Shown here piece after piece: positions 1,264 through 33,266 of a DNA stretch of 64,000 nucleotides. Under the pieces are notes generated by a model, which was not told the origin of the DNA, ran no database searches, and worked only from the letters and a program-made list of their open reading frames with translations. How positions within the stretch are numbered: the stretch's first letter is position 1; the number at the start of each line of letters is the position of its first letter. Source of the DNA: Phellopilus nigrolimitatus (taxonomy: Eukaryota > Basidiomycota > Agaricomycetes > Hymenochaetales > Hymenochaetaceae); contig JAJOHG010000002.1 in assembly GCA_021029095.1 (NCBI GenBank), positions 1,922,001 through 1,986,000 of the forward strand, given 5' to 3'. The position numbers and the translations under genes were made by a program.

Positions 1264-4200
1264 ATGTCCAGCGACCTCACGATGTACTCGGACGACGACA
1301 AACCGCTTGGGCTCGATCCCGCTGTGCGTGCCCAGGCCAATGGACACGTCAGTCATGCGAACGGGGGGCACGCAGCCGACGAAGACAGCTCGATGAGCGA
1401 AGACGATGTTCCGCTCCTAGTACGTGGCCTCCGCATACAGCACGCACTACCACATGTACTCACAGAGGTCATATGCTTTCCCATACGTTACTCTAGTCGC
1501 AGTCTTCGCGCGTTAAAGCCGAGTCCGAGACGCCGAAACGTCCACAGAAGCGCAAGGTCGCCACGTACACGTCGTCTAGCGACGACGACGCGCCCCTCGC
1601 ATCTTCATCGCCCGTGAAGCATGTGCGCTCTGTGGCTGCGTCCTCACTCAGCGCGGGTTCCGCCACCGTCGTTCCCACAGATGTCGACGACAAGGTCAAA
1701 GTAAAGCGCAGCGCGAAGAGCCGGAGGACCGTGGCTGCGGACGCATTCAGCGATGAAGACGATGCACCACTCGGCAAGAAGAACCCTGCAACGAACGGCA
1801 AGGCGAATGGCTCGAACGGCAAGATAAATGGTACCAACGGCAAGGTAAACGGCACGAACGGAAAAGCGAAAGCGCCGCCGAAGAAAAGGGTGAAGAAGGA
1901 AGAGGATGAAGACGACGCTTTTGCGGCGGGCTCTGAGGATGAGAAGCCGAAGAAGAGGAAAAAAGCAACGACAGCGAAGGGCAAGGCGAAGAAGGAGGAG
2001 GCATCGGACGATGACAAGCCACTGACCACATCGAAAAAAGCTAAGTTGAACCCTGCTGACGACGACGAGACCAAGGCGAAGCCGAAGAAAAGAGCTACGA
2101 AGCCGAAGAAGGAGGACTCTGAGGTCCCTACGTCGCAGGCGAAGAAGAAAGGAAAGAAGGAGGATTCGGAGGAAGGAGAGGACGTCTTCCGCTGGTGGGA
2201 GGCCGAGGATCCCAATGGTGATGGCTCGATCAAATGGACGACGCTCGAGCACAACGGTGTCTACTTCCCTCCTCCTTACGAACCTTTACCTTCCGATGTG
2301 AAGATGAAGTACGCCGGTGCGTATCTACGAACCACCTTCAGCGCACGATTTCATTTAGCAGTATACTTTAGGCCGTCCCGTTGATCTTCCGCTAGAATCG
2401 GAAGAGGTTGCTGGCTTTTATGCACAGATGATTGAGACCGATCACGCACAAGACCAGATTTTCAACAAGAACTTCTTCAAGGACTTCCTCACGGTCCTCG
2501 AGAAGTATCCTCCTGTGTGTCTACGTTCTTTGTAACTCTTTTTTCATGACGCTAAATGTATTTTGCAGCGTGATGGCACGAAGATCAAGGACTTTGAGCT
2601 CTGCGACTTCCGTCCTATGTACGAGTTCTATGAGGCGGAGAAGGCAAAGAAGAAAGCTTTGAATTCAGCACAGCGGAAGGCCCTGAAGGCAGAGAAGGAC
2701 AAGCTCGAGGAGCCGTTCACTACGTGTGTCCTTGATGGACGTAAAGAGAAGGTCGGCAACTTCAGAGTCGAACCTCCTGGTCTCTTCCGTGGTCGTGGTG
2801 AACATCCTCGCAAGGGCACCCTCAAGGTGTGTAAGCTTCTCTTGCAGTATGCTCTCTAATGCTGAGTTCTATCATCGCTAGTTCCGTGTACACCCAGAGG
2901 ACATTACTATCAATATCGGTGAGGGCGTCCCAGACCCCACGCCGAATATACCCGGCAAGTGGAAGAACGTCATCCATGATCAAACAGTGACGTGGTTGGC
3001 GAACTGGACGGAGAACGTCAACGGCCAACACAAGTACGTGTTCCTTGCTGCAGGGTCGTCGCTCAAGGGTCAGAGCGACAAAGGGAAGTTCGAGAAGGCC
3101 AGAGAGCTGAAGGTAGGTATTTCTTCCGTCATAGTTTTTTCTTTATCGACCCAACACTTATCTTCGATCAAGGATCACGTCGACCGCATTCGCCAAGACT
3201 ACAGTGTCGAGCTGCGGACCAAGCTCATGGCAGACCGTCAGCGCGCGACAGCCATGTACTTCATCGATCGTCTTGCCCTTCGTGCGGGTAACGAGAAGGG
3301 AGAGGATGAGGCAGACACGGTCGGCTGTTGTTCGCTGCGTTGCGAGCACGTCACGCTTGAGCCGCCGAACCTACTCATTTTCGACTTCCTGGGTAAAGAT
3401 TCGATCCGCTTCTACAAGCGCGTCGAGGTCGAACCACAGATCTTCAAGAATGTCCGTATCTTTAAAGAGAACAAGGAGGATTCGGATGCGCTCTTCGATC
3501 GTGTCAATGTAAGATCCTTCTTCAATTGTGTCATCGCTTCACTCGGGTATTAAACTCGGTCATCGGTCTAGACTTCGCTCATGAACAAGCACCTCGCATC
3601 GTACATGAAGGGCCTCACCGCCAAGGTGTTCCGTACCTACAACGCTTCGATCACCTTCCAACAACAGCTCGATCTCTACTCGCCGAAGGAAGCATCCGTC
3701 CAGGAGAAGCTGAATGCATACAACAAGGCAAACCGCATGGTGGCTATTCTCTGCAACCATCAACGTTCCGTCCCGAAGACCCATTCGGCGTCGATGGAGA
3801 AGATGAACGACAAGGTAATGTCTTTTTGCCATTCTTCACTTCTCCATGTCGATCTGACGCTGGCTTAAAACGCAGCTGCGCGCCATCAAGTATGAGCGCA
3901 TGAAGATGCGCCACGTGCTGTTCGGACTCGACGCGAAGTACAAGAAGAAGAAAGAGTATAAGGATGACGAGTCGGACATCGACGACGAGTGGGTCGCACA
4001 GCACGAAGACACAATGAAGGAGAAGGAGATCGAGAAGGTCAAGAAGAAGTTCGCGAAGGACAACGAGAAAGCTGAGGCGGAAGGCGAGAAGCCGAAGCCT
4101 GAGTCTGAGTTGAACGAGCGTATTAAAGACATTGAAGCGGAATTCGAGCGCCTCGAGGATGAGCGCGGGACAAAGAGCGCGACCTTGAAGCGCACGAAGC

Positions 4201-4612
4201 CCGCAGAGAAGATCGAGGAGGCGATTGCTAAGCTGACTGAACGCATCAAAACGCACAAACTGCAGATTGTCGATCGCGAAGAGGGTAAGGAAGTTGCGCT
4301 CGGCACAAGGTTGGTCTCGTCGCTTCACATTGTATCTACTTTGTTGACACGACTTCCCGCCTAGTAAAATCAACTACCTTGATCCTCGGTGAGTCGTGGC
4401 TCTTCTGTAACTCATACCTCCTTTGCTCACGTTCGTATCTCCAGAATCACTGCAGCCTGGTGCAAACACCACGATGTCCCCATTGAGAAAATATTTTCGA
4501 AAGCTCTCCTTACTAAATGTATGTGCCCCTTCTCCATTTCTACCTTTTCGTGAGCTGATGTTACGCTTCAGTCCCATGGGCCATGGAAGCAGATTCCGAC
4601 TGGAAATTCTGA
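1264..4612 (+). CDS. TOP1: DNA topoisomerase I (type IB)
   Basis: Eleven exons give an uninterrupted 919-residue protein: 1264-1419, 1497-2316, 2372-2514, 2569-2826, 2882-3112, 3173-3508, 3572-3814, 3876-4309, 4365-4388, 4445-4518, 4572-4612. The enzyme relaxes supercoiled DNA through a 3'-phosphotyrosyl intermediate in the nucleus. The N-terminal ~290 residues are charged and low in complexity, with a run of NGK/NGTNGK repeats and Lys/Glu blocks. The core domain follows ([14 protein letters not shown], then [17 protein letters not shown]), including the active-site region around [21 protein letters not shown] long coiled linker ([11 protein letters not shown] to [11 protein letters not shown]) leads to the catalytic segment [11 protein letters not shown], with Tyr878 (codon 4375-4377) as nucleophile. 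The protein ends [13 protein letters not shown]. Degenerate fragments of this gene recur at 17.26, 20.8-21.4 and 29.6-30.0 kb; this is the only complete copy. Confidence 0.97.
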
Positions 4613-4987
4613 GCATCGTGTACCTCTGCTTTTTTTTGCACTTCTCACTGCTAGATTTCGAAGCGACTCGACCGCTTCGCTTCACCTTCTCTTCTGGGAC
4701 TTCTCTTCCCATCCTGATATTTTTTCGAGTCAATAGCCCATTCCCGGACACTGTTGTTCTACTGCAAACCTGTCGCATACTGTCTATACTTCGCAAACCC
4801 GCATATTCTTAAACCTCATCACAATATACGCATTGTTATCGAACTACCCTCTTTCGACGACGCTCTGTCTCAGACTTGCGTCTGAGATGGTGCAGGAAGA
4901 TTGCATTTATGCAAAGTGTGGATCAGGGACAACATTAGGAAACTAATTTATAGAGTACATCTTCTGACTGATAAATCTTGAATGAAG
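4613..4987. other. TOP1/SWS1 convergent 3' region
   Basis: A 375 bp stretch without a gene between two convergent 3' ends. It contains pyrimidine-rich 3' UTR-like sequence (TTTGCACTTCTCACTGCTAG and onward). Most of it is recognisable again, diverged, at about 21.37-21.74 kb, where it follows the truncated TOP1 copy, so it belongs to the duplicated block. Confidence 0.6.
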
Positions 4988-5560
4988 CTAATCGTTCAAC
5001 ACAAGCTGCGTACTCGGAATGTCACCATCGGTGATATTGCGCTCGGCGCACTTGCTGAGCCGCTGCGCGAGCTGTACGGCGAGCAAATGCTTGCACTGTA
5101 GCTCCATCGACAGCAGACACCGCAGGGAGCAATATTTTAGTGAACGGACTCTGATTCCGCTCTTAAAATTTGAGAATGCTTACCATCAGCTGATCCTCTG
5201 AGAGGATAACCGAGAATGCGAAAGATGGACAGCTGCAGTACGCCGGCTTGTGCGGCAGGAGGTCAGGCTGGACAGTATACGCCGACGTCGAACCATGAAC
5301 CTCGTAAAACGAATGACCCCACTGTGTTTTCAGATGCATCACTGTATTTATTCCCGAAACGTAATTAGAATTGGATTCGTGGTTTTCGATATCGGTCTGG
5401 AAGACGGAGAACTGGTATTGACCCCGCTCACGGTCGATGAGGTCCAATGCGGCTAAGAGCAGGTTGTCAGGGAAGAAGTGGCGCAGCTTTTGTATGCTGT
5501 CCTCAAATACTGTCCGACTCTTTCGTTGGTTTACGCGCTTCAGCAGATTGCTGAAAATAT
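4988..5560 (-). CDS. SWS1/ZSWIM7-like SWIM zinc-finger protein
   Basis: A small intron-split gene. Exon 5423-about 5550 reads FSNLLKRVNQRKSRTVFEDS, then KLRHFFPDNLLLAALDLIDRE. Intron 5342-5422, exon 5184-5341 (HLKTQWGHSFYEVHGS, then PAYCSCPSFAFSVILSED), intron 5096-5183, and exon 4988-5095 (CKHLLAVQLAQRLSKC to the stop). CSC plus CKH forms the SWIM zinc-binding pattern CxC...CxH, and ALDLIDRE...YCSCPSFAFSV...CKHLLAV matches ZSWIM7/SWS1. Family role: partner of RAD51 paralogues in Shu-type complexes that promote homologous recombination. The first coding exon and start codon were not found; an acceptor-like TAG near 5565 suggests another short 5' exon. A diverged 3' copy lies at 21.76-22.08 kb. 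Confidence 0.75.
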
Positions 5561-6091
5561 TGACGGGCTAACAATCGTTAGAAGACTGCGCGTCGCCGGA
5601 AGAATATCCAGCAGATTATGAGAATTGGCGAATAGCATATTAGAACTCGATATGCATGACCTCAGGAGTGCGGAGAAAGTTTGGCTATGGGACGTTGGTA
5701 TCTGTGTACTGGTTGTAGTTAGAGTTAACGTTATAGAGTGTCGAAAGGAGTGGCCTGCGGAGATTCCCTTTGTGATGCGTAGATCTCGAAGTTCGGATCC
5801 TAGTGAACGGCCCGTGGCCGCAGGACCGTCTAACTTTCCGATTTTGCTGCAGGAGATTCGGTATTCCGAAATAAAAGCTCATCAGAATCACACCAGAACT
5901 TGAAATTGATCTTGAAATTCAGTTTTGATGCATTCAGTTCTGGCAAGCTGGACGAGATTACATTGAACCCAACAAATGCCTCTTGGTATTCATCATGCTC
6001 AAAATATAAAAAGACAGTTCGAATGATGTACACTCGTAGCATGCAACACGTAACATCTGCTATGCGTGTCCTCGCAGCCGGGTATTCTTAC
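5561..6091. other. Stretch without a recognised gene
   Basis: About 530 bp between SWS1 and the carboxypeptidase pseudogene. Only short, unconvincing frames are present on either strand. It probably contains the SWS1 start region and 3' sequence of the pseudogene. In the duplicated block at 22 kb this stretch and the carboxypeptidase are absent. Confidence 0.5.
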
Positions 6092-8165
6092 TCAGGTAGA
6101 ACTCAGCGGCCCGCCCTTCATCGCCTGCTCAAAGAATTGTAAAGCAACCTGCCCAGTTTCGAGCCCCATGTTATTGTACACGGGTACCTCGTGCCCAGAG
6201 CCAAACATGCGGATGTACGAGAACGAGCCCGCGTTTTTGATGAGCCCCGCGGGCTGCCCCGCGACAGTGTAGTTCGAGAAAGACTGTTGCTGATAGAGCG
6301 AATTGAACTGCGTCTGGAAATTGTCGACCTGTAGAAATGACGTTGTGCAAGTTAGGAGCGTAAAGACGGCGGGCTTGATTTGGCAGCTCACCATCGCTTC
6401 GACGCCCTTGAAGTTCAGCATGTAATCCGCGTCTCCGTCGTAGATAACCGTACGGATCTTAAATAAAATACCTCAGTCAGAAGGGTAGTGAGCAGGAAAG
6501 ATTAAGAAAGCTTACTCCAGCATTGATGACAGCCTCAAGGTCAGGTGCAGAATTCAACACCCAGTCTCCGGTCTTGGCGAAGTTATTGAACACATCATTA
6601 TTTGTCTCTTGCCAGAAGCCCTGTGAACATAACTCATTATACACGCCTGGGTATAACAACGTTTGGAACGTACATGAAAGACGAGTCCTGCAGCAGGTCT
6701 GGTGGGTACGAACCGTTTTCGGGCTGGCGCACGTCTTACACGTCGTAGTCGCCCGACAGCACCGAGAGCACATTATTGTTGCAATTTGATTGTGCATCCG
6801 AGCACACCGACGTCGACTTGGTATCGTAGCACGATTGGATCTACGCAATACAACCCCGCTCACGTTCAATTTCGCGAAGCACCACCAATCCATGGGACGT
6901 ACCTGGGATTTGCAGCCGCCCGACTCGTAAGAAGAAGGACGTGTTGGCTTGCTCGATAACGCTGCTTGAGACAGTAGGCAGGTACGGATTGGATCCCGCG
7001 TACACCATATACTCTGCGTACTGCGAGAGCGGGTCCGTGAGCCCGTTCCCGACGCCGAGCGTCTTGAGGTTGATAGCCGTTCCCGTCAGCGTGCCTGCCG
7101 CGATCGCCGCATTCTGCTCGAGGAAGTAGTGCGCGAACGCCGGGCCGCAGTGCCCTCCGTATCTAGCAAGGAAATATTGTATGTTAGTACAATCCAGTGT
7201 TGTGATCGAGGAAGTAGCGCACTTACGACTCCGTCCAGAGTGAAACGTCGTTCTTCGCGTACGCGGAGACCGTGTCGTTTGCAAAAAAAGATATGAAGCA
7301 TGTTCCACACTGCTTCCGCTGCCTGCTTCGCTCCCGAGACCTCGAGGTCGCCGTGGGAGTAGCCAACGCCGACTGAAAACTAGATCAATGCACTAAACAC
7401 GATGCAAAAAGAGTGAAGGCTTCAGGGACTCGGTTGGTCGATGTAAAGCCTCTTCAATAAAATCAGTATGATCAAACCAGCTGTTTCTAGCAACACTCAC
7501 ATGTTCGCATTGTTGTTCCAAGAGTATTTATTCAAAGATACTGTTGCCTCATCTGTATTGATTCAACAGGGCTTCAGATTCTTCAGTCAAGTACAATAGG
7601 GAAGAATCAGAAGAAAAAGACGAACCCCGTTTTCTTGGAAAAGACCGACCATTGATGACGAGCCAGGCTGCGCGAGTAAAAAGCGGATGTTGAGGGGGGG
7701 AAAAGCGATTAGAATTGATACATGCTCTCACGCCGCCATTGAACCAGATCGCAGGAGTTGTTTCGGGAAGCGAAGAACCACCACCTAAGAAACCACGAAG
7801 TAAAGTTAACCGCATGACGATGAAAGCATACGCAAAACCAATTTACCACATGCTCTGGGAAGTCGTCAGGTCTGCATATCCGGAAGCCTAATAAACAACG
7901 GCAGTAGTATCTACAAGGATACGATTGAGAACGCAGCAGTAGCTTGAAGTTATAAACAAAGACAAACCAAAACGCCGAAGGTCTCGATAAAGCGCAATTT
8001 GCCGGCCACGGGAGAGCCAGACACTTGCGGCTTCGGGAGCGCGGCATCTTTGTTGACGCTGGATGCAGAGGCTGGGACACCACCGTGGACTCCGTCGACC
8101 TTAGGTATCTGACGCGAAGATACCAACAGACTCAGACAACCGATGAGCCAGAGACCTTTGCAGCG
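6092..8165 (-). pseudogene. Decayed S10 serine carboxypeptidase
   Basis: Exons in order (right to left) give a secretion-signal-like GLWLIGCLSLLVSS without an upstream ATG, then [83 protein letters not shown] with the catalytic Ser, LGVGNGLTDPL, IRTVIYDGDADYMLNF with the catalytic Asp, and GSGHEVPVYN with the catalytic His. These are S10 (carboxypeptidase Y/S1) signatures. Lesions: no start codon; a deletion with frame change before AIWFNGG (~7770); TGA at 7563-7565 where the family has Arg in GPCRIN; an extra T in a T7 run (~7282-7288); an extra T in the codon before ESGGCK (~6933); TAA at 6736-6738 in GDYDVYD; and a missing stretch before NNDVFNNF. The single T insertions could be assembly errors, but the two stops, the missing start and the deletions indicate a pseudogene. 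An intron reading could bypass the TAA. Confidence 0.82.
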
Positions 8166-9663
8166 AAATCAATCTGCAGGCTCTAAGTTTTTATACGTTT
8201 CTAGACGAACTACCGATCATTCACGTATCACAAACGAAGGACCGTCTGCGACCGCGTCTCGCACGCACGTCGCCCGGTTCCAGAAGACAAGGATACAGCA
8301 TGGCTAAGGAAGACATAGTCCAGAAACGATGATTCGTGTAGCCAGAGCATGAGAGCATAAGCTGGTAAAGCAGTACGACACAACGACACATATATGATCC
8401 TACCATGTGGAGATCGTAAGAAATAGCACGAGAAAATACGGTGCGCAATGCTGATTCAGCGCATGGATTGATGTAGCTGCTATTCAGAAGGCGATGACTT
8501 TCTGCAGATGCGGAGCTTTATATAAGCATGTGACTAGTACGGCACGCAATCGATACTCCATCCTTGCGCTCTCTCTCCTTGCTTGTTTGTATCTGTCTAG
8601 CATTGGCTCCAGCCCCCAATAGCCTCTAGGAATGCCTCGATCATATATCTTTCTCAAGCTCAGTCTAAGTTGTCGTATCGCAGGAAGTTGCAACTACTTA
8701 CCTCGATACCGCGGTGCTCAGGCTCGAGCGTGCGCAAACGTGAGTACTCGAGACTTGGTCATGCTTGACCGCTAGGCTGTTGGACGCATTTGCGGGTATG
8801 CGGATAAGCTTTGGAGGTCGGGAGCTTATTTGTGCGAAAGTAATGGCGGTTTGGTCTTACCGGTCGATGTCGAAGGCTTCGGGGACTTGTCGCAAGACAA
8901 GCGACTGAATGCGTCTCATCGTCTCACCAGTTCTCCGGGGACCTGTCCTAAGCTTTTATGCTTGTATCTGGATCACTTTGAAGTTCGACGCTGTGTTCTG
9001 GCTTTCAATTTCCCTACTCAGCTTCTATCGGGGCGACTGCTCGAGATCTGAACGTCAATACGCTCGTTTCAGAAACAGTGTCTTGTGCATACCCCGCCAA
9101 GTTTCGGTTGTATCCACGATAACCTCAAGACAGTCTCACTACTGTGTCTCAGAGACGCTTTATATGCATCCTAGTGCGTCCTAGTTATTTTGCGGAAATT
9201 TCAAATGGCAGACTCAACGTAATCTAAATCCCTAAATACAGGCTTTTATGAATACTCTTGCAAACTGTGCGACGTACAACGGTTTTCGGCACCAAGGTGC
9301 ACTCCCGACTTTTGGAGAAGAGTGATGTCCTCTGTGAGCTGTACATGATCGCGTCAGCCGTACGTCTTCTTTAAAACAGCACACCCCCGTCTCGGCATCG
9401 TGGTGCATGTTGCGCATAGGCCGCATGTGGTTCAACAGAGACGAGAAGCAGCTAAGCTGGTGGGGAAGGAAGTCTGTGCTATAGCGTCTTTGGGAGACGT
9501 ATCGGTACGTTGGCTTACGCTGCATGTCCCCATCACTATGTAAAGCTCACTTCAAATTATGTTCCACAGCCAAGCCATCCGAGGCTGCTCTGGCAGGAGG
9601 TGTTCTCACGCAAATCCCCGGCTTGCGCTCGCCTACAATTTGTGAGTAACGTCTTTGCACCCG
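8166..9663. other. Stretch without a recognised gene
   Basis: About 1.5 kb of sequence with only short frames on both strands and no family resemblance that I can see. It has no counterpart upstream of the second NLR, where SWS1-derived sequence joins directly to the equivalent of about base 9664. Confidence 0.5.
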
Positions 9664-9943
9664 AGCCGTTGGATGCGACAACATTCGTCTGCCGAGCAGG
9701 TAGGGAAGTTCACGAAGACAACTGTGATTTACGTGCTATATGCATAATCTATTGTAGCTGATGTACATAGCATGCTTTTGCTCTCGAATAAAAAAATAAA
9801 AAAATAAAAAATAAGGTTCAACGTTATCTTTAGAAATGCATGCATGCGGACGCATCGTGTCGTCGCATCGATAGCAACGACGCGCAACTTGCTCTCAACC
9901 ACCATCGTCTCGACCTCAAATCGTTGTTTTTTCACCGTTCAAC
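9664..9943 (+). repeat. Duplicated NLR upstream region (copy 1)
   Basis: This 280 bp upstream region is clearly related to about 22090-22358 before the second NLR: both contain GATGCGAC-ACATTC, GAAGTTCACGAAGAC, a CATAATCTAT-GTAG segment and CATCGTCTCGA just before the ATG. It includes an A-rich run (AATAAAAAAATAAAAAAATA, 9786-9815) and presumably carries the NLR promoter. Confidence 0.7.
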
Positions 9944-20780: not shown

Positions 20781-21372
20781 ATGAGGATGACGAGTCGGAC
20801 ATTGGCGACGAGTGGGTCGCGCAGCACGAAGACACAATGAAGGAGAAGGAGATCGAGAAGGTTAAGAGGAAGTTCGCTGAGTGCAACGAGAAACTGAGGC
20901 GGAAGGCGAGAAGCCAAAACCCGAGTCTGAGTTGAACGAGCGTATGAAAGACATCGAGGCGGAGTTCGAGCGCCTCGACGATGAGCGCGGGACAAAGAGT
21001 ACGACCTTGAAGCGCACGAAACCCGCAGAGAAGATCGAGGAAGCGGTTGCTAAACTGACCGAACGCATCAAAATGCACAAACTGCAGATTAGAGGTTGCG
21101 CTCGGCATAAGGTTGGTCTCGTCGCTTCACATTGTGTCTGCTTTATTGACGTGCCTTTCTATCAACTACCTTGATCTTCCTTTGCTCACGTTCGCATCTC
21201 CAGAATCACTGCAGCAAACGCCATGATGTCACCTGTCAAAATATATTCGAAAGTTCTCTTTACTAAATGCATGTGCCTCTTTCCAGCATTTCTACCTTAT
21301 GTGATTCGTGAGTTGATGTGTTACGCTTCAGTCCCATGGGTCATGGAAGCGGTTCCGACTGGAAATCCTGAG
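20781..21372 (+). pseudogene. TOP1 3' fragment (exons 8-11)
   Basis: [20 protein letters not shown] to ERIKMHKLQI copies TOP1 exon 8 (3961-4265), followed by decayed versions of exons 9-11, including AATCACTGCAGC and CCCATGGGTCATGGAAGCGG. A one-base loss breaks the frame after KRKFAECNEK, and the exon carrying the catalytic tyrosine is damaged. The copied sequence continues into the TOP1 3' flank as far as about 21740. Confidence 0.85.
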
Positions 21373-21738
21373 CATCGTCTTCCTCTGCTTTTTTATGCGC
21401 CTCTCACCGCTAGATTTCGAGACGACTCGACCGCTTCGCTTCAACTTTTCTTCTGGGACTTTTCTATCCATCCTGATATTTTTTTCGGCTCAATAGCCCA
21501 TTCCCGGACACTGTTGTTCTATCAAAAACCTGTCGCATACTGTCAATACTTCGTAAGCCCGCAAATCCTTAACCGTCATCGCAATATACGCATTGTTATC
21601 AAACTCCTGATAGGACGCCACTCTGTCTCAGACTTGGTCCTGGAAAGGCTATAATTGCCCACGAAAGCGTTCGACAAGCATAAGAGAGCATTGGAGACTA
21701 AATCTTAGAAGGTCCTTCCTGTGACAGACAGATCTTGA

Positions 21739-22082
21739 ATGAGCTACTCATTCGATACAAGCTGCGTACCCAGAATATCTTCATCGGTAATACTGCGCTC
21801 GACGCACTTGTTGAGCCGCCGCGCGAGCTTTACGGCGAGCAATTACTTGCACTGTAGCCCCATCGACAGCAGGCTCCGCAGGGAAGAAATCAATATTTTC
21901 AGTGGACAGAATCTAATTCGCTCTGAAAATTTGAGTGCTCACCATCAACTGATCATCTGAGAGGAGAACGGAGAACGCGAACGATGGACGGCTGCAGTAC
22001 GACGGTATGTGCGGCGGGAGGTCGGGCTGGACGGTATGCGCCGACACGTCGAGCCATGAACCTCGTAGGACGAACGACCCCA
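21739..22082 (-). pseudogene. SWS1-like 3' fragment
   Basis: A copy of the last two exons of the SWS1-like gene. The exon at about 21950-22080 reads GSWLDVSAHTVQPDLPPH and then SYCSRPSFAFSVLLSDDQLM, and the terminal exon lies at about 21755-21856. The first zinc ligand pair CSC has become CSR, and the upstream exons are missing. At about 22082 it joins directly to the NLR2 upstream region. The change of a zinc ligand supports loss of function. Confidence 0.8.
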
Positions 22083-22358
22083 GTGTGTCTCGTTTGATGC
22101 GACGACATTCATCTATTGAGCAGGTATGAAGTTCACGAAGACATTTACATGCAATATACATAATCTATCGTAGCATATGTGCATAGCATACTCTTGCTCG
22201 AAGAATAAACATAAAAAGGCATAATAAAATAAGATTCTTGCTATTTTTAGAAATGGATGCTTGCGACGCATCGTGTCCTCGCATCGATAACGACAACACG
22301 CAACTTACTCTCAACCACCATCGTCTCGATCTCAAGTCGCTGTTTTTCACCGCTCAAC

Positions 22359-25300
22359 ATGTCGCAAACTCAGAACAATCCAAGCGTGGATGAAGCCTGG
22401 TAAGCCGGCGAGCTTAATTTAAAAAAAATAGATTTTCGTCTGTTCTGATTTATCGCGTGTTTGCCCGTAGCTTCCTCCATCTGAAAGGTAACAACCTTAT
22501 TCTCGTTGTCGCACGCTGTAAGCAATGGGTGCGTACGTGTTGTAATGATTCTCTGTACAGAAATTATGGTCGACTTTAAAGTCCCGCTCCCGAACTCGAA
22601 ATTTTCTGTCAAAATCGTCGAGGCGGACAAGTCTTATGAATCGCCCGTTTTCGGAAAGAGGGCTCAAATTAAGTGGGAAAGTGATCTGTGAGTTCTACTC
22701 TCATGTTTGGGTTGCACGCAAACGTCTGAAGTACGTTGCAGGTATATTACATCTTCTGCTACCATCGAGTTGTTTGTACAGGAAGTGCGTAGCTCGAAGC
22801 TACATATCAAGAAGCACTATACCTCAGTCAGCAAGAGCTTTATAGCGAGCGAGACAGCTGGGAACAAGACAGTCCAAGTTGACGGTACGTTCGCCATCGT
22901 AATAATGTGAAATATAAGTCATGGTTGTCTGCAGATATTCCTGAGCGTGCAAAGGTCACTGTCAACTTTACTTTTGGAGATTCGCAGTCGGTAAGCAAAT
23001 CTGCGATGCGTGTCTATTTGTTTGTAGATTTATGACTCTTTCAAAGCTCGAGAATGTTGCTCGTCTCCTCAGCGATGAAGCAACTAGTGCTCTTGCCTCG
23101 AAGGTTGGTCTGCTAGGCAACATTGACAAAGTGCTTGAGTTTGCGGAAGTGGTTTTGAAGATGGGAGGAGCAGTTTCTGAGGTAGTTCTTGTTACGTTTT
23201 CTTGCCTCCTTAAACTGCCCCTCACTCCGAAGCATTGCTTTTAGTTGAATCCAATTGCGAAGGCAGTTGTTGGATCTGTCAAGATTGCTTTTGAGGTGAA
23301 CCAACCGTCCCTGTGAGTTGTATTTGAGTTTCTCTGATTATACATATAGAAGTGCCAGAAGATCAGCAAGGGTCATGATCACGCTGTGACTCTCATGAAT
23401 GACATGGTCTCTCTGCTTCCACTGCCGAGCCTTATTCAGGATATAGTGAAGGAACCTGAGACCAAGAAGATAATGGAGAGGTTTCTCAATCTGGTAAAAG
23501 AAGCAGCTGAAGCTCTCACTAGATATGCATCTCCTTCCAAGATCAGTGAGCAAGCAATAAACTCTGTTGATTTATGAACAATGCTGACAGGCCCAAGAAT
23601 TCTATGCAAGGAACTTGTTGAAGTCTGAGCAGGGAACATTCACCAAGTTGAAAGCAAAGCTCAATGCTATGAAGCCAAACATGATCCTTTATCTTCAAGC
23701 AAGCACACATGCTGTAGCTGTTCAGATTCTTGGTAACCGTAAGATTCAGTGTGTTCTCAAGATAAGATGACACTGACATAACATCTGCAGAAGAGCTAGA
23801 CTGGCTCAACAGGTTGAATCCAGTCATTTCAGCTCATTATGACCCAAAACATTCCTGTTTGTCAGGCACAAGAGTAGACCTTTTGCAGGAAATTGGTGAC
23901 TGGGCCACTACTCAGGGTCAAACATCCAAACTTTTCTGGATGCATGGCATTGCCGGTTCAGGGAAGAGCACCATTGCATCCTCTGTTGCATCCATGTCCT
24001 ATGATAATAAGTGCCTTGCTGGATGCTTCTTCTTCAAGAGGGACATACCAGAGCGCAGGAATCCACAATCTCTATTCCCTTCTTTGGCTTACAGCCTTGC
24101 TATTCTCTTCAAACCTTTCAGGGATGCTATTTCTCAGGTGCTACAAACAGACCCAGTCATTGCTGGCAAGGCAGTTTCTCTGCAGTTTGAGGCACTATTC
24201 AATGGTCCAATTTCTAAATGCAGCCAAAGCTCTCCATTAAAAACTATCATTATGGTTATAGATGCTTTGGATGAGTGTGGAGAGTCTCAGGACAGGTCTA
24301 TGGTTGCTTCATACCTCACACAGTTGGCAAATCTTGCACCTTGGCTCAAGGTCTTTGTCACCAGCAGGTCAAATTCTGAGATCCATGATCAATTTGATAA
24401 TATGACCAGGCTTACTCGGGTTTACAAACTAGATTTGAACTCCATTGATGCTGTGCAGGATATCTATAACTTCACAGAATCTCGGTTGAAAACTATCAAT
24501 GGACTGGAGCCAAAGTGGCTTCAAGAAGAAAAAATCAGGGCACTCTCAGATAGAGCTGCTGGTCTCTTCATCTGGATCAGCACTGTTGCAGAATTCATTA
24601 GAGTTGAACTTGATAAAGACACTGCACTTCAGGAGATTATTGAAGGGACCTCTGAACCAGGGGACGGACCAGAAGCCACATTGGACACACTCTATAGATT
24701 TGTTCTTCAGGGAGTCAAAGGCAGTAAAAGGAGCCAACAGTCTTTGAAAATGATCCTTGGTGTTGTTGTTAGCACTGCCAGAAATAGACCTCTTCCTGTC
24801 TCTGGGATTTTTCACCTTCTTCCAAAAGATCCCCCCAACTACATCATTCCTGAACAAGCAATACATACACTCTTGAAGAACCTGCAGTCCGTTCTGTATG
24901 AAGACAGTGCTATCGGTGGAGCTATTCGAGTCTGCCATCCCTCATTCCTTGATTTTATGTCTAGTGAATTGCGCTCAGGGCCATTCTGGACCAATCCCAT
25001 TGAAGTCAACTCAGAAATGGCTACAAGGTGCCTCCAGATCATGGGCTCCCAGCTCAAGTTCAATATGTGCAAGCTAGAGTCCTCTCATGTCCCAAATAAG
25101 GACATCACAGATCTCCAGCACAAGGTTTCCTATCATATTCCCCAGTCACTCCAGTACAGCTGCAGATATTGGATGGACCACTGGCATATTTCTCATCCAG
25201 GAGTTAATGTTACTGGTCATCGAGAGCATAATCTAGTTCAGAATATCCTGTGCCAGCCAAAAGCTTTGTTTTGGCTTGAGGCTCTGAGCCTGATGGGAGA

Positions 25301-27648
25301 GCTGAAATCAAGCATTGACATCTTAGATAAGGCTTCCCTTGTGTTCAAGGTAAAGTGTCAACTTAAACTTGACTACAATGATCATTCATGCATTTTATGT
25401 TCAGGATTCCAATGGGATTGGAGAAGCTTCCACAGATCTCTACAGATTTGTTTCTGCATTCTATGAAGCTATAGCAACCAGCACACCCCATATTTATGTT
25501 TCTGCATTATCTTGGGCACCATTGGACAGTTATATAGCCAAGCAGCTCCATGCCTCATTCTCCAATCAGCCTTTGATTGTCTCTGGAAAATCCAAGACTT
25601 GGAGGAGCAATATATGGTCAAAAGCCACAGGGAGCCCTGTCAAATGTCTTGCATACTCACTAGATGGAAGGCACATTGTGTCTGGCTCAGGTGATGGCAC
25701 TGTGTGTACTTGGGATGCCCAGACTGGGAAACAAGTAGGAGAGACACTCACAGGGCATTCAAACTGGGTGGTTTCTGTTGCCTACTCCCCTAATGGAAAG
25801 TACATTGTGTCTGGTTCATGGGACCATACCATCTGCATTTGGGATGCTCATACTGGGAAACTAGTAGGAGAGGCACTCACAGGGCATTCAGAACCTGTCA
25901 GTTCTGTTGCCTACTCCCCTGATGGAAAACATATTGTGTCTGGCTCAAATGACAGGACCATCTGGATTTGGGATGCCCAGACTGGGAAGCAAGTAGGAGA
26001 ATCACTCACAGGACACTCACATTCTGTCAATTCTGTTGCCTACTCACCAAATGGAAGGCATATTGTGTCTGGTTCATCAGATGACACCATCTGCATTTGG
26101 GACGCTCAGACTGGCAAACAATTAGGAGAGGCACTCACAGGACACTCACATTCTGTCAATTCTGTTACCTACTCACCAGATGGAAAACATATTGTGTCTG
26201 GTTCATGGGACCATACCATCTGCATTTGGGATGCACAGACTGGGAAGCAAGTAGGAGAACCATTCACAGGACACTCACATTCTGTCAATTTTGTTGCCTA
26301 CTCACCAGATGGAAAACATATTGTGTCTGGCTCAAATGACAAGACCATCTGGATTTGGGATGCACAGACTGGGAAGCAAGTAGGAGAATCACTCACAGGA
26401 CACTCACATTCTGTCAATTCTGTTGCCTACTCACCAAATGGAAGGCACATTGTATCTGGTTCATCAGATGAGACCATCTGCATTTGGGATGCTCAGACTG
26501 GCAAACAAGTTGAGGAACCATTCACTGAACATCCAAGTTCTGTCAATTCTGTTGCCTACTCCCCTGATGGAAGATACATTGTGTCTGGTTCAGATGACAA
26601 CACCATCTGCATTTGGGATGCCCAGACTGGGAAGCAAGTAGGAGAGCCACTGGCAGGACATTCAAGTTATGTCAAGTCTGTTGCCTACTCTCCTGATGGA
26701 AGGCACATTGTATCTGGTTCATGGGATGACACCATCTGTGTTTGGGATGCTCAGACTGGCAAACGAGTTGAGGAACGATTCACTGGACATTCAAGTTTGG
26801 TTAATTCTGTTGCCTACTCACCAAATGGAAGGCACATTGTATCTGGTTCATGGGATGACACCATCTGCATTTGGGATGCTCAGACTGGGAATCAAGTAGG
26901 AGAACCACTCAGGGGGCACTCATATTCTGCCAATTCTGTTGCCTACTCCCCGGATGGAAAACATATTGTGTCTGGCTCAAATGACAGGACCATCCGGATT
27001 TGGGATGCCCAGACTGGGAAGCAAGTAGGAGAATCACTCACAGGGCATTCAGGATATGTCAGTTCTGTTGCCTACTCCCATGATGGAAAGCACATTGTGT
27101 CTGGTTCATGGGACAACACCATCTGCATTTGGGATGCCCAGACTGGGAAGCAAGTAGGAGAGCCACTCACAGGGCATTCAAGCTGGGTTAATTCTGTTGC
27201 CTACTCACCAGATAGAAAACATATTGTGTCTGGCTCAGATGACAGGACCATCTGGATTTGTGATGCTCAGACTGGGAAACAAGTAGGAAAGCCACTTACA
27301 GGACACTCATATTCTGTCAAATCTGTTGCCTACTCCCCTGATGGAAAGCACATTGTGTCTGGTTCAGGGGACAGCACCATCCGTATCTGGAATGCAGACA
27401 CTGGATCAGAAGGTTTCCTACTGATCCAGAAACTGCCAAAGGAATTTCGAGGAGATGAATGGTACAGGGGGCCATCAGGTGAACTGTTGCTCTGGGTTCC
27501 TTTGGAATTTAGAGTTACATTCTGTGACATGAGCAACATATGTATTTCGAAAACTCGGCCAAGGTTTCCTCCGAGGTTGGACTGGCCGAAGTTCCTTCGA
27601 TATGGAGGTTCAGGCTGGACACAGATTTTTGATGAGTCTCGTTTTTGA
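22359..27648 (+). CDS. NACHT-WD40 NLR-like STAND protein, copy 2
   Basis: Eleven exons give an open 1569-residue protein: 22359-22399, 22471-22487, 22561-22687, 22742-22884, 22935-22990, 23047-23181, 23245-23295, 23350-23545, 23598-23738, 23791-25349, 25405-27648. The architecture is as in copy 1: a C2-like N-terminus (MVDFKVPLPNSKFSVKIVEA), a helical adaptor, NACHT with GIAGSGKST and MVIDALDECG, a helical arm, and 14 WD repeats. It differs by three extra residues in exon 5 (PERAK), a single intron where copy 1 has the duplicated mini-exon, and a stop (TGA) directly after DESRF, whereas copy 1 splices once more. The stretch before the WD array, including KASLVFK-intron-D and the exon after it, is nearly identical in the two copies, which suggests recent duplication or gene conversion. 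Its ligand is unknown. Confidence 0.9.
25631..27419 (+). repeat. WD40 repeat array of NLR2 (14 repeats)
   Basis: Fourteen 129 bp units, again two propellers' worth. Repeats 3-4 (NDRTIWIW...ESLTGHSHSVN, then SSDDTICIW) recur as repeats 6-7 (NDKTIWIW...ESLTGHSHSVN, SSDETICIW), which looks like duplication of a three-repeat block (387 bp). Repeats 9 and 10 share SWDDTIC. Variable residues again lie after GH (SNWVV, SEPVS, SHSVN, SSYVK, SYSAN) and after SGS. Confidence 0.92.
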
Positions 27649-28053
27649 GGTGTACGTTTCCCCGCATCCTTTGTTTGTAGTTCGACTGTCTTGCTAACGA
27701 AAGTAATTATTTTAGTCTGGAATGTAAATATGTCATCGATTCATACCGAAGATATAATACGACGGAATTTGTCCAGTAGGATCGTGGAGGGGCAGTGAGG
27801 GATGGCGAGGTATGGGTATGTAATTGTGTCGCATGTCAATTGTATTATGTCGTTGTATATAGCCGAAGCGATATCTTTGACGCGAGGATGCTGAGCAGAT
27901 TGCGTGAATATTAGGTTGTCTCTACAGAGAAGAAAACGGTAGCCTGACAGACCGAGTCGCGATGTTTAACTGATTTATGAATATAACTTGTAAGTGTTCG
28001 GATAAATGAGTATATCATCTTTAGAGTGTAGACAGACCTCGGTGTCGTGCGCA
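27649..28053 (+). repeat. NLR 3' flank, copy 2 of 3
   Basis: Non-coding spacer homologous to 15374-15734 and 30230-30656 (shared landmarks TTAGTCTGGAAT, CCAGTAGGATCGTGGAG, GTGTCGCATGTCAA). No gene is visible. Confidence 0.75.
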
Positions 28054-29610
28054 CTAGAGGTATATGGCGCAACGTTGATTCATCTTAATTGCCAATGATG
28101 CTAACCTTCCATCCGTTCTGTCCGCCCCGCCGGGCGCGCCACACAGCAGCTCCGCATGCTCGCCCAAACCATTCACGAGCGTCTTCAGCTCCACGCGCGC
28201 CGGCCGCCAACCAGCAGCGAGCAAGTCGAGCGTGTGCTCCGCGCCGTCGACGTCCATCCCCACCGTATGACAGTCAGGCCTCCGAGTGGCGGCCGAACGT
28301 CCGCATCCTTGCATTCTAAGTACTCCGTTGCGGCGGTGCACTTTGTGGGCTTCCGGATCTCCGCAGGGTCCGCGAAGCCCTGCCACCTCTCCTCTCCTCC
28401 CGCGCCGCCGCCGCCGACACCTCACACAGCTAAGAACCATCCCCACATGCGCAGCCCCACGCGTTCCTCTGCGTCCGGGGACCGCGTCTGCTTTTTCGTG
28501 CGCCGGTTCGTGGACACCACGTAGTAGTACACGTTCGCCCGCGCATCGCGCCAGAGCGGCCCGAGGCGCGGGATCGCAGCCTGAAGCGCGAGCGCGTGCG
28601 CGTGCTCGAGTACCGAGAGCCGGTCCTTGTGTGCTTCGCGCGCCGCGCGGTGCGCCTTGTCTTTCTCAGTGTCCTTCGCAGGAGGTCCAGCCTTGACTTT
28701 CGTCTCAGACTTCTTCGCGTTGCCCTCGTCATGGCCGGTGCCCAGCCCCATCTCCACCTCTTCCGCCGTCCAATCTTGTTCATCTTCGCCCAGTACACGC
28801 GGTTCTCATCCCGCCCGTCTGCGCAGCCCTGATCGATCTCCACGCGCACCGACGCGCCCCGCAGTGCGTTCTCGCAGAGTATAAGGAGCGGTGGAAGGAG
28901 TTGCATCGCATACGAGACCCGGTGATGGCAACCGACATGTCCTCCAAGTCAGATCGGCGGGACGGGGCGGCGGCTGATGCAAGTTCGCATGCGCTGATCC
29001 GCGTGCTCGTCCATGGAGGTGGGGCAGACTCGGAGTCGGAGTCAGAATCGGACTCAGCAGTTGGCGGTGGAAGCGCAGAGTCCGGGATCGGCACAGGAAA
29101 GACGAGGAGTGGGAGTGTAGCGTGGAGGGCGCTGATATGTGCCCTCAGAGCCGCGGGTCGCACTCCTGTGCCAGCAAGGACCTTAAGTGTATCCTTAATC
29201 ATCTAATTTTAAAAGAAGTCCGAGTAAAGTAAGTTTCCAAATTTACGAGAGTATCTTCCATTAGGCTGTCGCCCACATACCTTATGCTTTTCCGGTTTGT
29301 CGTCTGCAGCGATCAAGTCGAGCAAGTTGAGGACGAGCGACTTTGGTCATGCGTCGCCCAGGGTATCAAAGACGTCGAGATCCTCGAGGTGCGTCATGCT
29401 AAGCTTCATGAGCTGCGCGAAGCGTAACACGAGCTGCTAATGATTATTATGAATGGACAACAACCAAAGCTGAAGGTTGAAGGGCACGCACAAAGAACCA
29501 GATTTTAGCCTGCGTCTAGTCAAGGTCTGTCGGCACTGCAGTCCACCTGGGCCTTCTTCAGGCGCTTTGAGCGCGACATCGGCCCCATGGTTTCGGCGGG
29601 TTCCTCTGGA
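28054..29610 (-). pseudogene. Truncated CDCA7-like zinc-finger gene, copy B
   Basis: A second diverged copy of the C-terminal half of the CDCA7-like gene: the last exon at about 28100-29205 (IKDTLKVLAGTGVRPAALRA near its start, AEDVWKVRKDGP-type decay near its end), the DDT-like exon at about 29280-29430 and part of the preceding exon at 29490-29610. Frames are broken repeatedly and the zinc finger and N-terminus are missing. As in copy A, it ends by running into TOP1-derived sequence. Confidence 0.8.
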
Positions 29611-30060
29611 GACTTGGCGATGGGGGTTGAGAGGCGAAGCCGAAGAAAAGAGCTACGAAGGTGAAGGAGAGGGATTCCGATGTCCCTAAGTCACGGACGC
29701 AAAATAAAGGGAAAAAGGACTCGGAGGAGGGCGAGGAACATCCTGCGCTGTCGGGAGGCCGAGGACGCTCGAGCACAAGACTGTAGTGTAAAGCATGGCA
29801 GATCGAGCGCCTCGCACTTGGTGCGGGGAGAGGACAAAGCAGACACGGTATTTGAATCGGACATCTGTCTAGACAGGCACCTCGCGCCATACTCGAATGG
29901 CCGTTCTTCACTTTGCCATGTATAACGATGACGAGTCGGACATTGACGAGGAGTGGGTCGGGCAGCACGAAGGCGAGAAGCCGCGGAGGACGAAGAGTTG
30001 AATGGTACAGTTTGAGCGAAGCCGGGAAGCGCTGACATAAACTGACCGAAGATTCGGTCC
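29611..30060 (+). pseudogene. Scrambled TOP1 fragments
   Basis: Short TOP1-like blocks occur in gene order with large internal deletions: exon 2 (GAAGCCGAAGAAAAGAGCTA at 29637, then GGGAGGCCGAGGA), exon 6 (CACTTGGTGCGGG-GAGAGGA, near 29815), exon 7 (AGGCACCTCGCGCCATAC, 29875) and exon 8 (GATGACGAGTCGGACATTGA, 29928). Nothing is translatable as topoisomerase. It is followed by a 60-70 bp piece shared with 17360-17412. Confidence 0.75.
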
Positions 30061-30093
30061 CTGACGCTCGCGTGCGTGCCGCTTCGGCAGCCG

Positions 30094-30656
30094 CCATCGA
30101 AGTTCCTTCAATACGGTGGTTCTGGCTGGACACAGATTTTCTATGAGTCTTGTTCTTCACGTGCAAGTTCCCCTCCATTTGTTGTTGTAGTTCAAATGTT
30201 TTGCTAACGAAAGGAATTATTTTAGTCTGGAAAAATGTAAATATGCCGTCGATCCATACCGAAGATGTAATACGATGGGATTTCTCCAGTAGGATCGTGG
30301 AGAAACATTATGGGATGGCGAGGTATGAATATGTAATTGTGTCGCATGTCAAATGCACTATGTTCCCGAGACGTAGTTGTAAATAGTCGAAGCAATAGTT
30401 TTGAAGCGATGATGCTGAGCAGATTGCATGAATATTAAGATGTTTTTACAGTAAAGAAGCGAAAAACTGACAGAGACGATGTTGAACTTGATTTATGAAT
30501 GTAACTTGTAAGTATCTGGATAGCTGAGTACATTATCTTTAAATGTAGACAGACCTTGGAGTCGGACCTCCCCGTGCGCATTAGAGATATATGGCGCAAC
30601 GTTAATTCACCTAGACTCCATCGATGCTAACCTCCCATCCGTTCCGTCCGACTCAT
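30094..30656 (+). pseudogene. Orphan 3' end of a third NLR plus its 3' flank (copy 3 of 3)
   Basis: Bases 30098-30160 (AAGTTCCTTCAATA, GGTGGTTCTGGCTGGACACA, GATTTTCTATGAGTCTTGTT) match the last codons of the two NLR genes (FLRYGGSGWTQIFDESR). They are followed by the characteristic 3' intron-like segment and spacer seen after the other NLRs. Everything upstream of the NLR C-terminus is missing, so a third NLR once stood here or only its end was copied. Confidence 0.8.
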
Positions 30657-33266
30657 CTATACTTCTACCCCGCCGATGCGCCACGCAAGCAGCTCCGCAT
30701 ACTCGCCCAAACCCTTCACGAGCGCCTTCAGCTCCGCGCGCGCCGGCCGCCGACCAGCAGCGAGCAAGTCCAGCGCGCCGTCGACGTCCATCTCCACCGC
30801 ATGTGGGGCAAGCCTCCGAGCAGCGTCCGCATTGCTATCCACATCTGCGTCCTTGCAATCTAACTCCTCCGTCGCTGCGATCCACTTTGCAAGCTGCCGG
30901 ATCTCCGCAGGGTCTGCGAAGCCCCACCACCTCTCCTCCCCTCCCGCGTCACCGCCGCCGACACCCCACGCAGCCAAGAACCATCCCCACTTGCGGAGTC
31001 CCTCGCGTTCCTCTGCGTCCGGGGCTCGCGCCCGCTTTTTCGTGCGCCGGTGCGCGGACGCCGCGTAGTACACGTTCCCCCGCGCGTCCCGCCCGAGCGG
31101 CGCGAGGCGCGGGTTCGCAGCCTGAAGCGCGAGCGTATGCGCGTGTTCGAGCGCCGAGAGCCGCGCCTTGTGTGCTTCGCGCGCAGCGCGGTGCGCCTTG
31201 TCTTTCTCAGTGTCCTTCGCAGGAGGACCAGCCTTGACTTTCTTCTCAGACTTCTTCGCGTTGCCCTCGTCACGGCCGGCGCCAAACCCCATCTCCGCTT
31301 CTTCCTCCGCCCACCTCTTGTTCTCCTCGCGCACCTTCGCCCAGTACACGCGGTTCTCTTCCCGCCCGTCTGCACAGCCTTGCTCGATCTCCACGCGCAC
31401 CGACGCGCCCCGCAACGCGTTCTCGCAGAGCGCAAGGAGTGGCGGGAGGAGCTGCGTTGCGTGCGTCACCGGGGGCCCAGAGGCGGCGACGAGCGTGTCC
31501 TCCGAGCCGGAGCGGTGGGACGGGGCTGCGGCGGCTGCAAGTTCGCGCGCGCTGATCCGCGTGCTCATCCGTGGAGGCGGGACCGACTCAGGCTCAGAGT
31601 CGGACTCACTGGTAGGCGGTGGGGGTGAAGGGTCCGGGATCGGCACAGGGAAGACGGCGTGTGGGAGTGTAGTGCGAAGGGCGCTGAGATGTGCCCACAG
31701 AGCCGCGGGTCGCGTTCCTGTGCCAGCAATGTTCTTAAGCGTATCCTTAATCATCTAATTTTAAAGGAAATCCGAGTAAGGTAAGTTTCCAAATTTACGA
31801 GATTATCTTCCATAAGCGTCTCCCCCGACTTACCTTCTGCTCCTCTGGTTCGGCATCTGCAGCAATCAAGTCCAGCAAGTTGAGGACGAGCGCCTTTGCG
31901 CACGAGTCACCCAGGGTATCAAAGACGTCGAGCTCCTCGAGGTGCGTCACGCCAATCTTCATGAGCGGCGCGAAGCGTAACATGAACTCGCGAAGCTTTA
32001 GATGAATATTAAAAACGGACAACCTCTAATGCTGAAGGTTAAAGAGTACGCACGAAGAACCGGTTTTCCGCCTGCGTCTGGTCAAGGTCTGTCGGCACTG
32101 CAGTCCACCTGGGCTCGGGGACGACCTTCTTCGGGCGCTTTGCACGCGGCTTCGGCTTCACGGGTTCGATGGCTTTCTCAGTGGGTTTCGTAATAGGGAC
32201 GCCCAGAGCAGATCCGCCTGCTGGATACGGTATGTACTTCACGGCGCCCGGGACATTCGAGAGTTTTCTGCAATAAATTGAAATAAAACAGAAACGGGAA
32301 TAAATAAGCCTTGAAGACAATACATAAAACCAGAGAGAGCAGACGAACCCCGTGGGCTCAAGACCCTTCGCTTTCCGACAATTGCGGCAGTTGCACTTGT
32401 CCGCACATTTAGGACACCTAGATCGGGTTTTAAGCATGTGACAGAGGGGGAAAAAAAGCGTGATGCATACGTCCAGTGGTACGCGTCGTCGTCAACGTGC
32501 TTGCTGTTCTGCTGCGTGATTCTGCGCCGCCTGATCTGCTCGGCGTCCTTTCCGTAGCGATTGTTGATACATCTATCGCAGTACTTCTGTCTGCAACGCA
32601 GTCCGGATTTGAGCGTGCAGTGCAGACCCACTGCATATAGCCGTTAGTAAAAACAGTCCGATGCGAGAGCAAGAAACGTGACTGCTTACGAGAATTGTCG
32701 GTTTTCCTCCGGCACTGGTGGCAGTAGAAGGAGCCATTCGGGAACGTCTCTTCGCTCTTCGCAGTCTTCGCGGACCCGTCTGCGAGCTTGACTTTTTTGA
32801 GCGGCGAGCCCGACCCTGCGGTGGCGGCGGGCGTGTTCGCGTTAAGCGCCTTCGACGCGAGCAGACTGCCCCTCCCGCGCGGCACTGCAGCGCGGCTCTT
32901 ATGCGACGCGTGCAGTGGCGACGGCGGGATCTCGACATACACCTGGAATTTGCTCTTGAAGGGGCTCGGCCCCGGGGCGCGCGCGGCGCTGGGCGTCGCT
33001 TTGGGCGTCGTGCGGTGCAGGGGCGACGGCGGGATCTCAACAAAAACTTCGAGCTTGCGTTTGAGCGAGTTCGCGCGGGAGATGCCCGCGGTGGGCTTAG
33101 GCTTGGGTTTGGGCTTGGGGGTGCTTGCCATTGGCGCGTTCACGGATGGGGGCGCCGTGCGCCGGTGAAACGGTGATGGTGGGATCTCGACGAAGACCTC
33201 CATGCGCCGCCTGTGGGCGGCTGAGAGCCGCTGCGTCGAGGAGGACGACGACGACGCTGCGGACAT
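30657..33266 (-). CDS. CDCA7-like zf-4CXXC_R1 protein with DDT-like C-terminal region
   Basis: Six exons give an open 759-residue protein: 33266-32690, 32630-32471, 32417-32349, 32267-32054, 31995-31834, 31754-30657. The N-terminal ~150 residues hold three copies of VEIPPSP followed by F/L-H. The zinc finger has YCHQCRRKTDN, LHCTLKSGLRCRQKYCDRC, INNRYG, then after a ~26-residue insert WTCPKCADKCNCRNCRKAKG, the R1-type finger of CDCA7. The next exons (LREFMLRFAPLMK, LEELDVFDTLGD) and PRLAPLGRDARGNVYY resemble DDT/WHIM-type regions. Known for the family: CDCA7 recruits the HELLS remodeller and senses hemimethylated DNA; fungal members with an inserted R1 finger are thought to co-occur with HELLS and maintenance methyltransferases. 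This is the only full copy; two C-terminal pseudocopies precede it. It is divergent from TIM17 across 192 bp. Confidence 0.87.

Follow-up and report, generated by a model that had tools for sequence, protein, structure and literature searches.

In Phellopilus nigrolimitatus (Hymenochaetales), positions 1,922,001-1,986,000 of contig C112 (assembly of 56.4 Mb in 635 contigs), a stretch of 64,000 nucleotides hereafter called the window, hold an array of three collinear units. Each unit derives from the gene order TOP1 (DNA topoisomerase I), an SWS1-like SWIM zinc-finger gene, a gene for a NOD-like receptor (NLR) and a CDCA7-like gene, and the units are 77-83% identical to one another by self-alignment. 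The array is probably the outcome of an old tandem triplication in which two NLR genes remained under constraint, followed by later loss on one haplotype.

The order TOP1(+), SWS1(-), NLR(+), CDCA7-like(-), which a preliminary description of this DNA had traced three times and proposed to verify by dot plot, was recovered in the self-alignment as collinear off-diagonals. Their scores reach 5,418 bits, far above the maximum of 37.4 bits for off-diagonals in ten simulated 34-kb sequences drawn from an order-1 Markov model. The off-diagonals, in window positions, were:
3958-5327 with 20781-22088, 80% identity
9667-11295 with 22091-23728, 83%
11387-17228 with 23726-29624, 80%
15232-17237 with 30098-32207, 77%
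27587-29606 with 30098-32179, 80%
2074-2209 with 29632-29765, 79%, short, in TOP1
3232-3303 with 17235-17306, 83%, short, in TOP1

Gene order and orientation, introns and spacers included, are preserved across 7.5 kb. Mapping of two deposited proteins, a TOP1 of 919 residues and a CDCA7-like protein of 759, together with the self-alignment, confirmed the contents ascribed earlier to each block; the ends of the outer genes are those of the preliminary description. Block 1 comprises a whole TOP1, the SWS1-like gene, NLR1 and a CDCA7 remnant starting at residue 293; block 2, TOP1 residues 557-586 and 752-913, an SWS1 remnant, NLR2 and a CDCA7 remnant; block 3, TOP1 residues 246-281 and 757-773, an NLR tail and the whole CDCA7-like gene. 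The units are thus collinear and in the same orientation, with truncated inner copies and whole genes at the outer edges, as in a tandem segmental duplication. Their parts are:
1264-4609 (+), TOP1, whole, left outer edge; Pfam Topoisom_I_N and Topoisom_I; match to deposited protein P0125 along residues 1-919
4991-5567 (-), SWS1-like SWIM zinc-finger gene of unit 1; Pfam SWIM with a hand-spliced query, E 7.6e-6, 25.8 bits against a cut-off of 19.6
9944-15341 (+), NLR1; N-terminal part, NACHT exon at about 11378-12994, WD exon from 13047; deposited partial model P0044; Pfam NPHP3_N, NACHT and WD40
15839-17228 (-), CDCA7-like remnant of unit 1, residues 293-739, without the zinc-finger part
17228-17313, junction 1, where CDCA7 residue 293 meets TOP1 residues 557-586
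20765-21351 (+), TOP1 fragment of unit 2, residues 752-913, without the bases around the active-site exon junction
21747-22088 (-), remnant of the unit 2 SWS1-like gene, broken off at 22088; from self-alignment, frames read by eye
22359-27648 (+), NLR2, with NLR1-like architecture; NACHT exon 23778-25349; deposited partial model P0020 maps from residue 256; start set by alignment to NLR1
28120-29625 (-), CDCA7-like remnant of unit 2, from residue 321
29625-29738, junction 2, where CDCA7 meets TOP1 residues 246-281
29921-29971 (+), TOP1 fragment of unit 3, residues 757-773
30098-30207 (+), tail of the unit 3 NLR, corresponding to 15232-15341 of NLR1
30660-33266 (-), CDCA7-like zf-4CXXC_R1 gene, whole, right outer edge; Pfam zf-4CXXC_R1; deposited protein P0245 maps over residues 1-759

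The breakpoints are informative about how the units arose. The two inner CDCA7 copies lose their homology to the whole gene at one place within about 9 bases (32198-32207): at 32198 for unit 2, and at 32207 for unit 1, whose alignment runs on via weakly matching bases. On the TOP1 side, the junctions differ between the inner units (residue 557 versus 246). Since the breakpoints lie inside TOP1 and CDCA7, the inner copies of these genes were truncated at birth and are uninformative on selection. Whole genes at the edges and broken ones inside are the automatic geometry of tandem duplication, with no decay needed, and the earlier interpretation of this pattern as decay under selection for the NLR alone is therefore not supported. 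By contrast, the earlier proposal of a tandem amplification of one ancestral block is upheld by the nearly shared CDCA7 breakpoint and by the synonymous divergence (dS) between units 1 and 2, which is 0.301 for the NACHT exons and 0.301 for the CDCA7 remnants; this equality indicates that both were probably copied together.

Unlike TOP1 and CDCA7, the SWS1-like gene lies wholly within the unit and is therefore a fair internal control for decay. It is the only one, perhaps together with the Peptidase_S10 gene next to it, and it did decay: its unit 2 copy breaks off at the joint between the equivalents of 5327 and 9667, and no copy in unit 3 turned up when the genome was searched with window positions 4600-6000. 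The identity of this gene, claimed in the preliminary description, depended on splicing, as the unspliced query matched Pfam SWIM only at E 0.14. The idea that the segment after TOP1 is a Peptidase_S10 gene only was dropped, S10 being present beside a separate SWS1-like gene.

A second contig, C7, carries these three units in the same order, though its internal insertions differ; it is probably the other haplotype (B) of the dikaryon, C112 being haplotype A. Positions 34,438-94,899 of C7 align to the window in three blocks of 96.3, 95.4 and 96.9% identity. The TOP1 catalytic domain was found at two genomic places, one on C112 and one on C7, and the active-site motif SKINYLDPR is present on both. 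Less probably, C7 is a recent segmental duplication. In a tree of the CDCA7 pieces, copies cluster by unit and not by haplotype, with all three printed supports at 1.000, which implies that the three units are older than the split of the haplotypes. The haplotype-B copy of the unit 2 remnant starts at residue 295.

Constraint on the two NLRs was assessed against the CDCA7 remnants. As the preliminary description had stated for the NLR frames, the NACHT and WD exons of both genes are open, with 519 (NLR1) and 524 (NLR2) codons for NACHT and 764 (NLR1) and 748 (NLR2) for WD. Compared with the whole gene, the CDCA7 remnant of unit 1 has 6 frame-changing indels in its 365-codon last exon and that of unit 2 has 5 in its last exon, plus 1 in-frame stop; compared with each other, the remnants differ by 11 frame-changing indels in 985 bases. 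At the remnant rate, about 42 such indels would be expected between NLR1 and NLR2, as a rough scale. The DNA alignment of both NLRs contains short non-triplet gaps, which cancel inside the open frames. These open exons support constraint on the two NLRs and are a stronger sign of it than the ratio of nonsynonymous to synonymous divergence (dN/dS), which was 0.40 (0.34-0.48) across 1,262 codons of the NLRs and 0.56 (0.38-0.80) across 313 codons of the remnants. The ratio alone was rejected as proof of selection, since the remnant baseline is likewise below 1, and ratios between haplotypes A and B were discarded for being based on only 14, 22 and 14 changes.

On haplotype B, both NLR genes are damaged by mobile elements, at two places of the window:
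11203-11210, site of a 3.4-kb hAT-like element (C7:45684-49085), inside an NLR1 coding exon at about residue 248 of P0044
21615-25226 (3.6 kb), segment missing in haplotype B, where a long terminal repeat (LTR) element (C7:59538-67147) stands instead
The first element is flanked on both sides by an 8-bp target duplication, GCATTCAC, and has inverted ends TAGAGC...GCTCTA, a combination that suggests a hAT-like transposon. Five genomic copies with 99-100% identity, the C7 one included, were counted among the 40 scored of 271 candidates. Parts of its inner sequence match segments found at other loci, mostly at 79-94% and one of them SMC2-like, which identifies it as a gene-fragment carrier. A frame that appeared phosphatase-like by eye gave no Pfam match and no PDB match. 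At least two dozen further sites carry the end sequences of the element. The second element has LTRs of about 505 bp and a Pfam Retrotrans_gag domain; with its LTRs 99.4% identical, it is young. Judged by eye from its long frame it is of the Ty3 type, and no target duplication was seen. Haplotype B has lost residues 1-781 of P0020 and retains residues 782-822 (of 822) and the WD part. The hAT-like insertion and the LTR element with its deletion are the only haplotype differences larger than 1 kb within 53 kb aligned. With NLR genes covering about 20% of the aligned stretch, both events would fall in NLRs by chance with a probability of about 0.04 if independent and uniform, a figure given little weight since the left end of the deletion is outside the NLR2 gene.

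These losses qualify the earlier proposal of an amplification with selection only for the NLR. The decay of SWS1 and the two open NLRs agree with it; NLR3, reduced to a tail, and both haplotype-B NLRs, interrupted or cut, speak against selection for the NLR alone. The same losses would suit a neutral amplification, in which the arrangement is pure geometry and the NLRs are intact by chance or recent exchange, as would the truncation of TOP1 and CDCA7 at birth and a dN/dS difference between NLRs and remnants that is not significant (bootstrap P 0.058). Such a history is nevertheless unlikely, given NACHT and WD exons still open at a dS of 0.30-0.40, over which the remnant rate predicts the frame-changing indels estimated above.

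Several observations besides this P value weigh against a constrained tandem triplication. The frame and dN/dS tests covered the NACHT and WD exons of the NLRs, and dS is uneven along the NLR, with 0.399 for the WD exon and 0.14 and 0.28 for its short non-repeat ends. The inner TOP1 pieces are discontinuous (557-586 then 752-913; 246-281 then 757-773), which calls for numerous subsequent deletions, and for junction 1 a deletion would have to begin at the shared breakpoint. The related segments 17343-17415 and 30014-30092 precede the TOP1 752- piece in unit 2 and follow the 757- piece in unit 3, a position that a simple duplication model leaves unexplained. Finally, linkage of TOP1 and the CDCA7-like gene was surveyed in the 10 species common to the best 120 of 6,472 matches and a second listing of 25 matches. 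The two genes are on different contigs in five of the nine other species (Coniferiporia, Leucogyrophana, Mycena haematopus, Trametes polyzona and Dichomitus squalens, whose two records may stem from different strains) and on contigs of equal size, a criterion that gives no distance, in the remaining four (Fomitiporia, Jaapia, Phlebopus and Plicaturopsis), the latter fitting an old TOP1-CDCA7 linkage.

That gene-capturing elements, and not tandem duplication, brought in the inner TOP1, SWS1 and CDCA7 pieces is very unlikely. The genome does contain one such element, the hAT-like one with its host-locus pieces, and fragments of importin-beta and TPR-repeat genes lie inside unit 2, an insert that gene-capturing elements may account for. 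For the array itself, the conserved order, orientation, introns and spacers and the whole genes exactly at the outer edges argue against capture, and no target duplication was seen by eye at the joints examined. An assembly artefact is hardly credible, even in an assembly of 635 contigs, with units about 20% apart and the same order on two contigs that differ in their internal insertions.

In the tandem triplication that we favor, the ancestral order would have been TOP1, SWS1-like, NLR, CDCA7-like. A tandem duplication with breakpoints in TOP1 and CDCA7 would have produced a unit with a whole NLR and SWS1 and with flanking genes truncated from the start, and unequal exchange could then have raised the number to at least three units before the haplotypes parted. 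SWS1 would subsequently have decayed in the inner units, and the third NLR would have been deleted down to its tail. The other two would have stayed under purifying selection as proteins in which an N-terminal module, probably with a role at the membrane or in cell death, precedes a NACHT ATPase switch and a sensor built of 14 WD units. Later, in haplotype B, the hAT-like element would have entered NLR1, and the LTR element with its deletion would have removed the N-terminal and NACHT parts of NLR2.

The domain architecture of NLR1 and NLR2 was then considered. The NACHT core is firm, as supported by Pfam, invariant residues and a predicted structure near NRC2 and Apaf-1 (mean predicted local distance difference test score, pLDDT, 80; predicted template modeling score 0.64), and this NACHT-type nucleotide-binding domain places both proteins among the fungal NLRs (STAND). 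They would act as intracellular receptors, judging from their domains. Against deposited P. nigrolimitatus proteins, the NLR2 exons gave 99% identity over 41% of the query and 79% over 47%. Before the NACHT domain, a beta-sandwich (15-123) is predicted, as is a helical segment (129-299) with block pLDDT values of 54-80. Pfam MLKL_N reached E 0.078 in P0020, below the cut-off, and was not listed for P0044. The best Foldseek matches were AAA+/NLR cores and several long-rmsd matches; naming the sandwich a C2 domain was rejected, the match to otoferlin C2A (E 0.0041, rank 50) being too weak, and a second search, which barely covered the parts outside 286-711, listed no fold matches for residues 1-130. 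In basidiomycete NLRs, Goodbye/HeLo/MLKL-like domains are the most frequent effector superfamily according to the available text of PMC9815663, and by analogy a death effector is plausible for the N-terminal module. More NLR exon clusters, about 49-55% identical to NLR2, were found on contigs C36 and C578, apparently a second pair of haplotype contigs.

The count of 14 WD repeats given for both genes in the preliminary description was reproduced, on both haplotypes, with the last unit incomplete. The 24 complete 43-residue units present 24 distinct combinations at four residues, namely positions 7, 9, 25 and 27, the WD codon positions for which the accessible part of PMC1805685 reports positive selection in the HET-D/E family. 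In a register set by us on conserved V and D, these positions are the columns ranked 2, 5, 1 and 4 of 43 in variability, so that the five most variable columns include all four, with a chance of 4e-5 under random placement. Mean DNA identity of the WD units is 68% in NLR1 and 79% in NLR2, incomplete and off-length units included, values that lie below the 85% threshold for high conservation given in the part of PMC4986451 available. Differences between haplotypes in the WD units touch these variable columns once, at column 42 of NLR1 unit 6, so there is no sign that A and B differ much in specificity.

Divergence between haplotypes A and B is patchy. It amounts to 0-1.4% per 500 bases over the NLRs, a low level that fits constraint or recent exchange between haplotypes, to 8-12% over the S10 remnant and to 10-19% over part of the importin-beta fragments. 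Values of 5-19% per 500 bases were found at 5001-5500, 6001-7500, 18001-20000, 27501-28000, 30001-31000, 35501-36000 and 40001-40500, next to neighbors below 1%. Repeat-induced point mutation was not supported, as no excess of transitions was seen (60-68% in the divergent stretches versus 72-76% in three quieter ones). A gene conversion affecting unit 2 or unit 3 was rejected because units group by position along the whole piece, although single 150-column windows are irregular. The idea that other copies had converted the importin-beta fragment was likewise dropped, with A and B grouping together at support 1.000. Neither the mutation spectrum nor the grouping tests account for the patchiness.

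Further features of the array are:
5328-9666, 4.3 kb in unit 1 that are absent from unit 2, with the SWS1-like 5' part, the Peptidase_S10 remnant and flanks
6095-7392 (-), Peptidase_S10 remnant, by Pfam
17435-19933 (+), importin-beta gene fragments; Pfam TPR_IMB1, PDB importin beta at E 2.6e-14
20185-20780 (+), TPR-repeat gene fragment; Pfam TPR_19 at E 0.0012, below cut-off; related DNA at C112:66.8-67.4 kb
Relatives of the 5328-9666 segment lie at C112:1883-1888 kb, 1895-1896 kb and 1912-1914 kb. An inverted copy of the SWS1-S10 segment lies about 40 kb upstream, at C112:1883300-1884900. Its halves are swapped, 6009-9635 adjoining 4955-5977, an order that a tandem array or a circular intermediate would give, and there is also a match between its SWS1 flank and unit 2. 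The importin-beta fragments have an internal repeat (19367-19582 with 19714-19933), and copies or fragments of this gene, several of which look broken, occur on at least 10 other contigs of this genome. The TPR fragment was CTR9-like by eye, an assignment left unsettled by PDB, where designed TPR proteins came first and CTR9 reached only E 0.28. The S10 remnant, the importin-beta and TPR fragments and haplotype B are additions to the preliminary description. Immediately right of the array, at 33559-34056 (+), lies a frame of the Tim17/Tim22/Tim23 family.

The array represents an ordinary mechanism in an interesting place: an NLR was caught between two housekeeping genes, two copies were maintained, and these were later hit on one haplotype. 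Duplication junctions, CDCA7 remnants as an internal yardstick and apparently both haplotypes are available at one place, where birth, maintenance and loss of NLRs can be compared. As stated in the accessible part of PMC8229728, all current models of somatic incompatibility rest on ascomycetes, and the locus is a testable candidate for self/non-self recognition in basidiomycetes. It is doubtful that the two unrelated elements on one haplotype reflect selection, within one nuclear lineage of the dikaryon, for silencing a pair of cell-death receptors, which would make the array a candidate basidiomycete incompatibility locus; if true, the silenced pair would mean relief from somatic or inter-nuclear incompatibility. 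The literature matches listed contained no paper on P. nigrolimitatus NLRs, no basidiomycete hAT gene capture and no comparable NLR block, which is not proof of absence.

Among the partial models P0020 and P0044, no HET family appeared in Pfam matches up to E 1. HET-D and HET-E carry an N-terminal HET domain. Without a match to it, NLR1 and NLR2 were not filed as members of that family. The HNWD genes of Podospora anserina, HET-D and HET-E among them, likewise combine NACHT with alike WD units that vary at the same four positions, as far as the available text of PMC1805685 goes; unlike them, the genes described here belong to a basidiomycete, and both have 14 WD units. The haplotype-B element resembles the hAT elements that transduplicated histone H3 in Pyrenophora and Mycosphaerellaceae (available parts of PMC3538342 and PMC6710886) in its hAT-type ends, captured host sequence, several copies and 8-bp target duplication (PMC6710886), and differs from them in carrying pieces of several host loci and in its basidiomycete host. 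The CDCA7-like gene has the zf-4CXXC_R1 domain in common with the CDCA7F-type fungal proteins described in the part of PMC10538959 available. In Sordariales, according to the accessible text of PMC12258605, NLRs form a cluster if the distance between them is below 40 kb and other genes number fewer than eight, and 16 of 272 such clusters consist of paralogous copies. The NLR1-NLR2 pair fits this definition; unlike most Sordariales clusters, its NLRs are duplicates still joined to pieces of their neighbor genes.

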